Assembly: GCA_024636755.1 (NCBI GenBank) | Contig: JAGXGL010000017.1 | Location: 1 to 38,011, forward strand | DNA: 38,011 nucleotides | Reading direction: 5' to 3' | From: Guyparkeria sp. | Lineage (GTDB): Bacteria; Pseudomonadota; Gammaproteobacteria; Halothiobacillales; Halothiobacillaceae | In this document: piece after piece, positions 8,663 through 22,179 of the stretch | Layout of the letters: each line of letters starts with the position of its first letter | Position numbering within the stretch: position 1 is the first letter of the stretch | Made by a program: the position numbers and the translations under genes | The notes under the pieces: model-generated | The model's input: only the letters and a program-made list of their open reading frames with translations | What the model was told of the DNA's origin: nothing | Databases searched by the model: none

Positions 8663-9442
8663 TCACAGGCGACACAACGCGAGGCGGAACTCGATGTCCT
8701 CGTGGACCTGACGGGGATGCCCGTTCTCGCGGTCCAGCGTCATGAAACGCACGGTGAAGCGGTGCTTGCCGGCACTGATCTCGGGGTACGCGCCATTGTC
8801 ATCGTCGATCATCACGCGTAGCAACTGGTAGGGCGTCGCACTCTCGATGCTCTGCTGCAGGAAGCCTTCGTCGGCGACCACCGACATGGTATCAACGCTG
8901 TTGCGGATCAGGCTGATGACCAGTTCGTTTGCCAGACGAATGTCCGTAAACGGCTCCAGCCAAACATCGATGTCCTCGCGGCGCTCGGCGTCCGGAAGGC
9001 TCAGCCAGTAGTGCAGGCCGGGGATGTCGAATTCGCACAAAGCACCGGGGATCGAGGCGCGCTGGCGCACGGCGTTCAATAGCTCGTGAGTTTTCAGATG
9101 CGCACCGGGCTGGGCGTGGTAGCCGTGCAGCGCCTTGATCAGGCCGTTCTGCTGATCGAGCAGGGCATTGAGCTTGTCGCGATCGACACCGGGGGTATCC
9201 GGCACGTTCCTCAGGCGGGCCTGCTGTCGCTCGAGCTCCTTGATCAGCTCGCGCTTGATGTCGATGCGCGAGAGGACATCGGCGGCCTCGAGCAGCAGGA
9301 GCACCGTGCAAAGCGTGTCGTCCCGCGAGCTGCTTTGCAGGTGATGGTCGATGCGGGCGAACAAATTGTCGAGCCTGAGGCAGGCCCGGATCCGTTCGTT
9401 CAGTGGTTGCTCGTAGATTTTCAGAGGTGCGTTCCGATCCAT
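8663..9442 (-). CDS. zapD: Cell division protein ZapD (YacF)
   Basis: The 259-residue protein matches ZapD, a cytoplasmic factor that binds the FtsZ C-terminal peptide and bundles protofilaments in the Z-ring. Recognisable family stretches are YEQPLNERIRACLRLD near the N-terminus and PGLHYWLSLPDAERREDI in the middle. The N-terminal region is helical and the C-terminal half is beta-rich, as expected. It begins 42 bases from the edge of the structured element at 9484-9756, and no strong ribosome binding site is visible before the ATG at 9442. In many gammaproteobacteria zapD sits with coaE and yacG; here it directly precedes minCDE. Confidence 0.92.
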   Translation of the reverse strand: MDRNAPLKIYEQPLNERIRACLRLDNLFARIDHHLQSSSRDDTLCTVLLLLEAADVLSRIDIKRELIKELERQQARLRNVPDTPGVDRDKLNALLDQQNGLIKALHGYHAQPGAHLKTHELLNAVRQRASIPGALCEFDIPGLHYWLSLPDAERREDIDVWLEPFTDIRLANELVISLIRNSVDTMSVVADEGFLQQSIESATPYQLLRVMIDDDNGAYPEISAGKHRFTVRFMTLDRENGHPRQVHEDIEFRLALCRL

Positions 9443-9483: not shown

Positions 9484-9756
9484 TTAGGGAAGCTTTGCAC
9501 GAATGCGCTGCCGCTCTGGCCAGGCGAGCCGTTCGTGATCAAGGCGTGTCGTCGCCGGCGTGCCGGTGGCCACGTCAAGACGGCGCAACGCCGATCACGG
9601 GCGGCTCGTCAGGCCCGCAGGGCGCGCCTTGAGCCGGACATCTGCTGTGTTGCCGTCCTCGGAAAGGGAATCCCCCTTCCGCGTCGGACGGCCGTCTTGC
9701 AACTGCCCGGCTCAAGGCACGCAGAGCGGTATGCCATTCGTGCAAAGTTTCCCTGA
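9484..9756. repeat. Near-palindromic structured element (three-armed inverted repeat)
   Basis: This element fills most of the 375-base gap between metH and zapD. The outer arms pair 9484-9518 with 9722-9756, interrupted only by a 3x3 internal loop and a few G-U pairs; both arms contain CTTTGCACGAATG. Inside are two hairpin arms: 9526-9540 pairs with 9593-9607 (15 positions), and 9626-9637 pairs perfectly with 9707-9718 (12 bp). The second arm continues as 9652-9658 with 9686-9692 and an apical hairpin at 9661-9680. No convincing protein-coding frame is present. It could be a non-autonomous mobile element with ~35-base terminal inverted repeats, or a structured RNA. I see no clear target-site duplication flanking it. 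I do not recognise it as a known RNA family. Confidence 0.75.
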
Positions 9757-9817: not shown

Positions 9818-13513
<3,696 letters not shown>

Positions 13514-22094: not shown

Positions 22095-22179
22095 GCGGAC
22101 GTGGTGGAACTGGTAGACACGCTATCTTGAGGGGGTAGTGGCGAAAGCTGTGTGGGTTCGAGTCCCACCGTCCGCACCA
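22095..22179 (+). tRNA. tRNA-Leu (anticodon GAG)
   Basis: The 85-base gene includes an encoded CCA end. The acceptor stem is GCGGACG pairing with CGTCCGC; the D-loop region is GTGGAACTGGTAGACAC; the anticodon stem CTATC/GGTAG (one T-G pair) holds loop TTGAGGG with GAG at 22129-22131. The long variable arm (TGGCGAAAGCTGT region) is the class II feature of leucine tRNA, and the T arm GTGGGTTCGAGTCCCAC is standard. It reads codons CUC and CUU. It sits between secG and nuoA in the same direction, a gene order known from other proteobacteria, so it is probably cut out of a tpiA-secG transcript. Confidence 0.97.

Follow-up and report, generated by a model that had tools for sequence, protein, structure and literature searches.

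The closest published case to the element described here is MITEPsy1 of Pseudomonas syringae, an IS5-type MITE whose transposition was shown in vivo, probably by ISPsy2, and which has the terminal inverted repeat (TIR) GGAAGGTCTGAAAAAGCC and a 4-bp duplication, CTAG or YTAA (PMC3189936). The Guyparkeria element is like it in the start of the TIR (GGAAGGTCTG / ..CCTCTG), in this target duplication and in being non-coding and multi-copy. MITEPsy1 itself is 100 nt long with 18-nt TIRs, its TIR diverges after GGAAGGTCTG, and a two-arm structure is not reported for it, which sets it apart by description, not by sequence (PMC3189936). Insertion sequences (ISs) of the IS5 group, such as IS5, ISKpn26 and the IS beside atzC on pADP-1, have the same kind of terminal repeat, GGA..TCTGCACGAATC, and a YTAR duplication (seen on pADP-1 and in Acidovorax), but carry a transposase gene and have no three-armed module. 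Finally, the Chunjie MITE of Geobacter uraniireducens and the QMITEs of Coxiella are of the same size class, intergenic, with a stable predicted fold and many truncated copies; their ends and duplications are different, and the description consulted reports no arm module conserved across genera (PMC10969869).

In the window (the whole stretch of 38,011 nucleotides that was analysed), the element lies between two genes read in the same direction: a 1251-aa minus-strand ORF, metH, that ends at 9818, and a minus-strand ORF that starts at 9442, annotated as zapD in the sequence-only reading. An unprompted search for inverted repeats found three pairs at this site, 9486-9518/9722-9754 (33 nt, 85%), 9518-9540/9593-9615 (23 nt, 83%) and 9615-9658/9686-9729 (44 nt, 70%). 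The predicted fold of 9484-9756 is the three-armed form, with an MFE of -198.4 kcal/mol. Dinucleotide shuffles give -129.9 +/- 4.7 (z -14.7), and 0 out of 100 of them are as stable. The sequence-only reading had described a closing stem with two internal arms, in a hierarchy that random DNA should not give. The repeat search and the fold bear out this arrangement, and the shuffles bear out its excess over random DNA. Its coordinates needed small corrections: the four outermost bases on each side are target-site flanks, and the limits of the arms were redrawn (Table 1).

Table 1. Parts of the element copy between metH and zapD, in window positions.
Feature	Position	Strand	Remark
Element proper (mobile)	9488-9752		about 265 bp, non-coding
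Left target-site flank TTAG	9484-9487		4-bp YTAR/CWAG duplication of the family; right copy decayed here
Left terminal inverted repeat GGAAGCTTTGCACGAATGCGCT	9488-9509	+	same end on IS5-family insertion sequences
Internal arm 1, module forward	9518-9613	+	covariance model R1, 83.2 bits
Arm 1 loop motifs	CAAGGCG 9540-9546; CAACGC 9586-9591	+	
Central linker with mini-stem, CCCGCAGGGCG	9614-9624		sequence and predicted fold
Internal arm 2, module reversed	9625-9721	-	score with R1 on the minus strand, 76.9 bits
Arm 2 loop motifs, with substitutions	9647-9652; 9693-9699	-	
Right terminal inverted repeat	9731-9752	-	inverted-repeat search, alignment of copies
Right target-site flank CTGA	9753-9756		CTCG, CTTG, CTGC in orthologous copies

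The element is highly repeated within the genus. A DNA search of its own genome gave 39 matches on many contigs, and it was found in 10 out of 11 Guyparkeria genomes (its own and 9 of 10 others), mostly as many full-length copies per genome. Outside the genus there was a single weak match in one of 46 genomes. Searching with the TIR as a pattern, with at most one mismatch, returned as many as 66 forward matches and 63 reverse ones in one genome, and the reversed control pattern returned none. Across the Guyparkeria genomes the copies sit mostly between genes, as called by a simple codon-score gene caller, and their neighbours are unrelated genes.

We then read the metH-zapD junction in ten relatives, with the zapD protein as anchor. 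The site is filled in the window genome and in G002, G003 and G009, and G010 has a shortened, decayed copy. In G001, G005, G006, G007 and G008 the site is empty, with the flanks abutting and only 4-7 bases between them. Since five relatives have an empty site, the copy in the window was inserted here and does not represent a gene that the locus had ancestrally.

The copies fall into two subfamilies, with B (L178) about as abundant as A. Their consensus sequences are identical at 176 of 276 aligned positions and differ strongly in the arm stems, and both have the same three-armed fold. The loop sequences are common to A and B, these being ATCAAGGCG / GCAACGC in arm 1 and CATCTGC.GCGTTG / CGCCTTGCATCTG in arm 2. 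As for coding potential, the best reading frame of subfamily A is open in 29 of 65 copies, and most copies have no frame open throughout. In subfamily B several frames stay open in 40-48 of the 65 copies, which is what GC-rich sequence would give on both strands. The best identity between copies at different sites of the same genome is around 98%, which falls short of demonstrating recent activity.

Size variants with the same ends range from 55 to 338 bp (L185-L191), and have lost arms, kept a single arm or gained an extra hairpin. A 162-bp element with ends of this type and a single module lies upstream of an IS481 transposase gene on plasmid pRK1-5 of Cupriavidus basilensis (L197:3005-3166). 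In G010, two copies are found in tandem (L072:403-948), arranged as TTAT-element-TTAT-element-TTAT, as if one had landed next to the other at the duplicated target.

One possible reason for keeping such copies is a role as transcript-processing or insulating hairpins near genes. This would agree with an orientation bias within tandem gene pairs, where the element is antisense to its neighbours at 26 versus 11 independent sites in subfamily A, after removal of orthologous duplicates, and at 18 versus 10 in subfamily B (full copies, loci L001-L099 and L177-L278). This is a modest bias that depends on the same simple gene caller. A T-run follows the stem in only 1 of the 65 copies on each side, so that these are not intrinsic terminators. 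We consider this role improbable.

For the ends and target site we used alignment A1, with 65 full copies and the element taken as GGAA...TTCC. The left TIR has the family form GGAA[AC/GG/CC]TCTGCACGAAT. Exact 4-bp duplicates flank 18 of the 65 copies, when 4.5 are expected from shuffled right flanks, and 0 out of 1000 shuffles reach 18. Other duplication lengths or offsets do no better, except the inner TA inside the tetramer. The favoured target tetramers are CTAG, TTAG, TTAA, CAAG and CTAA. Subfamily B gives 19 of 65 against 7.4 shuffled (shuffle maximum 16). Dispersed copies with target duplications had been named beforehand as the mark of a mobile element, and both were found. A repeat of the REP/BIME/REPIN type, moved by a RAYT tyrosine transposase, would also be extragenic and palindromic, with hairpins as an inverted pair. 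Here, the element is far larger than the 20-40 bp of REPs (PMC3733652) and, unlike them, has TIRs and a target duplication, which are typical of DDE transposases. This reading is highly improbable.

Autonomous insertion sequences of the IS5 family have ends that match those of the element, GGAA..TCTGCACGAAT. When the TIR alone (30 bases) was compared by BLAST with 72,556 plasmids, hits 1 and 2 adjoined IS5-family transposase genes, on pADP-1 and on an Acidovorax plasmid. Both ISs have the TIR TCTGCACGAATCC at both ends, with flanks TTAG/TTAG and CTAA/CTAA. The pADP-1 transposase contains the DDE_Tnp_1 (Pfam) and DUF772 domains, matches NCBIfam transpos_IS5_4, and shares approximately 54% identity with IS5-like elements, IS5 and ISKpn26 among them.

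In the Guyparkeria genomes, searches with the Pfam domain and with the pADP-1 protein found no IS5-type transposase with this TIR, the window's own genome being 79% complete. Two candidates were rejected. The sole DDE transposase of the genus (L100, in G002) has no such TIR, and a 1.1-kb TIR pair on contig C4, taken as a possible autonomous copy, consists of a subfamily B element of 266 bp and a solo end that is unrelated to it. With no matching transposase found in the genus, the family looks stranded or only now and then mobilised. In a sister genus of the same family (L213, L214 and L217) there are IS5-type elements and remnants whose TIR, GGAAGGTCTGATCAATC / GGAACCTCTGATTGAATCC, is related to this one without being the same, and their flanks include TTAA and CTAG among others.

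Altogether, we read 9488-9752 as a copy of an IS5-group MITE, belonging to a family that is new in Guyparkeria, with a probability of roughly 0.88. The copies have TIRs and a 4-bp duplication, are short, non-coding, multi-copy and dispersed, and are present or absent at orthologous sites. MITEs usually, though not necessarily, have a cognate transposase in the genome that carries them; none was found here. A non-autonomous element with long terminal inverted repeats was one of two options of the sequence-only reading, and it is borne out by the dispersal of the copies, their target duplication, the empty sites and the ends of IS5 type. As for the mechanism, an IS5-group transposase would have acted in trans, cutting at the GGAA...TTCC ends, and the element would then have inserted at a CTAG-like target; that enzyme would now be missing from the sampled genomes. 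This transposition part rests on the ends, the target duplication, the autonomous relatives and the empty sites, together with the MITEPsy1 precedent. The MITE kind is already known, and the structured interior is the new part.

The interior of the element is an inverted pair of modules of around 96 nt. Each module consists of a variable outer stem, CAAGGCG, an inner stem, a GNNG bulge, a hairpin, the inner stem again, CAACGC-NG and the outer stem. In alignment A1, 97.8% of cells pair, and double changes are seen at 34 of 90 pairs. Double-changed cells number 280, against 80 in shuffles, a cell count that is inflated by related copies. When the partner is slid by 1-3 columns, pairing falls to 37-44%, although the structure was derived from the same sequences and so this control favours it. 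Strong covariation among homologues, which the sequence-only reading had proposed to look for, is therefore present in the arm stems. It also speaks against a chance or decayed structure without history. Such a structure would fit the several mismatches and the decayed target duplication (TTAG/CTGA) of the window copy, but the z of -14.7 and the 65 aligned, covarying homologous copies already refute it, and its probability is negligible. The absence of homologues with preserved arms, which would have pointed that way, is the opposite of what we found.

We also looked at wobble pairs for a preferred strand. With pairs predicted from both strands, subfamily A has 54 G.T versus 36 A.C (p 0.07), and 19 versus 24 among singletons. 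Subfamily B goes in the opposite direction, with 33 versus 55 (p 0.02). An initial plus-strand excess of G.U (108 vs 50) was discarded as an artefact of using plus-strand RNA energies in the choice of pairs, as the mirror set gives 67 vs 137. There is no consistent evidence of one transcribed strand at the element level. The element contains one module in each orientation, so no strand preference is expected at that level.

These results bear on the other option raised at the outset, a structured RNA. As a stand-alone non-coding RNA or riboswitch gene of metH or zapD, it would account for the strong fold, the conserved and covarying arms and the location between two co-directional genes. Against it, dozens of copies are dispersed beside unrelated genes, orthologous sites are empty and wobble pairs have no consistent strand preference. 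Furthermore, an Rfam scan of the window gave no match at 9484-9756; its sole match is a tRNA gene at 22095-22176. A locus-specific RNA gene is thus very unlikely, and what stands of the idea is the conserved, strongly covarying fold of the arms.

The MITE model itself does not account for the conserved arms, since the ends are all that a MITE requires. We suggest that they are kept because they are recognised as folded single strands, either as hairpin DNA at replication or transposition, or as a transcript. Such recognition would raise transposition or the tolerance of insertion. Unpaired bases that stay fixed within freely changing stems are as expected if a folded single strand is recognised. 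Integron attC sites are folded imperfect palindromes with conserved unpaired bases, and offer a possible analogy for this reading of the arms. They differ in that the arm foot here has no conserved bases and the arms are not in cassette arrays. We regard retention of the arms through recognition as plausible, at a little under an even chance.

To follow the module beyond the genus, we built a covariance model, R1, from arm alignment A2. This comprises 38 arms of Guyparkeria or related MAGs, together with single arms from Thiomicrorhabdus, Nitrosomonas, a Cupriavidus plasmid and a contig of Ca. Blackburnbacteria, and most pairs of its outer stem show several Watson-Crick types. R1 also recognises arms that it was not trained on: the second arm of each of the two Thiomicrorhabdus loci, one more Nitrosomonas locus and the second Blackburnbacteria arm. 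It gives no match on the IS loci L198 and L199 or on the empty site L202. The Blackburnbacteria locus (L133:631-902, MHBW01000015) is a weak two-armed match outside Pseudomonadota, on a short contig that could be misbinned.

Among 398 sampled Pseudomonadota genomes, R1 matches at E <= 1e-5 in 75, about one in five, and in 45 of 213 genera. Copy numbers per genome are at least those recorded, with at most ten candidates scored in each. In 29 matched genomes outside training, all four Watson-Crick pair types occur at most outer-stem positions and CAAGGCG and CAACGC are kept. A partner module lies inverted beside the first at 15 loci, and the enclosing elements of these 15 sampled pairs are 261-280 bp long, with differing terminal repeats. 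At least two of these repeats resemble IS5-family ends. Short queries traced these two by BLAST, with weak E-values: GGGC.TGTTCACACTAA to ISs of around 0.8 kb on Cupriavidus plasmids, one of them annotated as IS5 family, and GGGGGCGTTCTCAAT to an 829-bp Marinobacter element. The latter we judged IS5-like from its sequence, and the annotated gene adjoining it is an IS630 transposase. For two further terminal repeats, the same type of search produced no informative match. Five module loci from outside training had no match in Rfam even at E 0.1. We found no described family with these features in the open-licence literature; a description under another name may exist.

Among IMG/VR contigs classed as viral, module matches were observed at L331, L393, L392, L324, L340, L367, L390, L336, L339, L368, L325 and L383. 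The motif pattern alone proved mostly due to chance in viral contigs, with a covariance-model match in 12 of 80 loci.

In terms of base composition, the GC content of the stems tracks that of the flanks (rho 0.62, p 3e-4), as does the loop region (rho 0.45, p 0.015). Stem GC that follows flanking GC suggests that the module has been long resident in each lineage. The same correlation also counts in favour of palindrome correction, in which template switching or repair copies mutations from arm to arm, and stems match without any function. Terminal and internal stems do change in concert, with G-C to C-G flips and few intermediates, and the singleton mismatches of subfamily A are strand-symmetric. 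Correction should, however, erase asymmetric internal loops, yet the AAGG/AACG mismatches are almost invariant across genera, and the total length is near-constant. Furthermore, in the genomes outside training, the loop-proximal pairs (columns 15-19 with 84-87 of alignment A4) comprise 29 G.T against 2 A.C in the module orientation, an excess in one orientation that counts against correction. This excess would fit recognition of that strand, and is only a hint, the model itself having been trained on T.G there. Overall, palindrome correction is a real possibility, at clearly less than even odds.

Returning to recognition of the folded arms, its widest form is that the inverted pair of modules of around 96 nt is an undescribed structured mobile unit of Pseudomonadota. 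Elements of a fixed length, 261-280 bp, would all carry one conserved two-armed core, and their many different terminal repeats would belong to transposases of IS5 type and perhaps of other types. The stems would be rebuilt by compensation in each lineage, and CAAGGCG/CAACGC would be held constant by a factor, of the host or of transposition, that reads the arms as folded ssDNA or RNA. We put this forward tentatively, as a proposal that could well be wrong.

The presence of the module in about 45 of 213 sampled genera, under differing terminal repeats, suggests that the interior of some bacterial MITEs is not filler. The element is a testable case of selection for a folded strand, and it allows compensatory selection to be tested directly against palindrome correction by template switching. 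Lastly, the covariance model could give a name to thousands of unannotated "intergenic palindromes".
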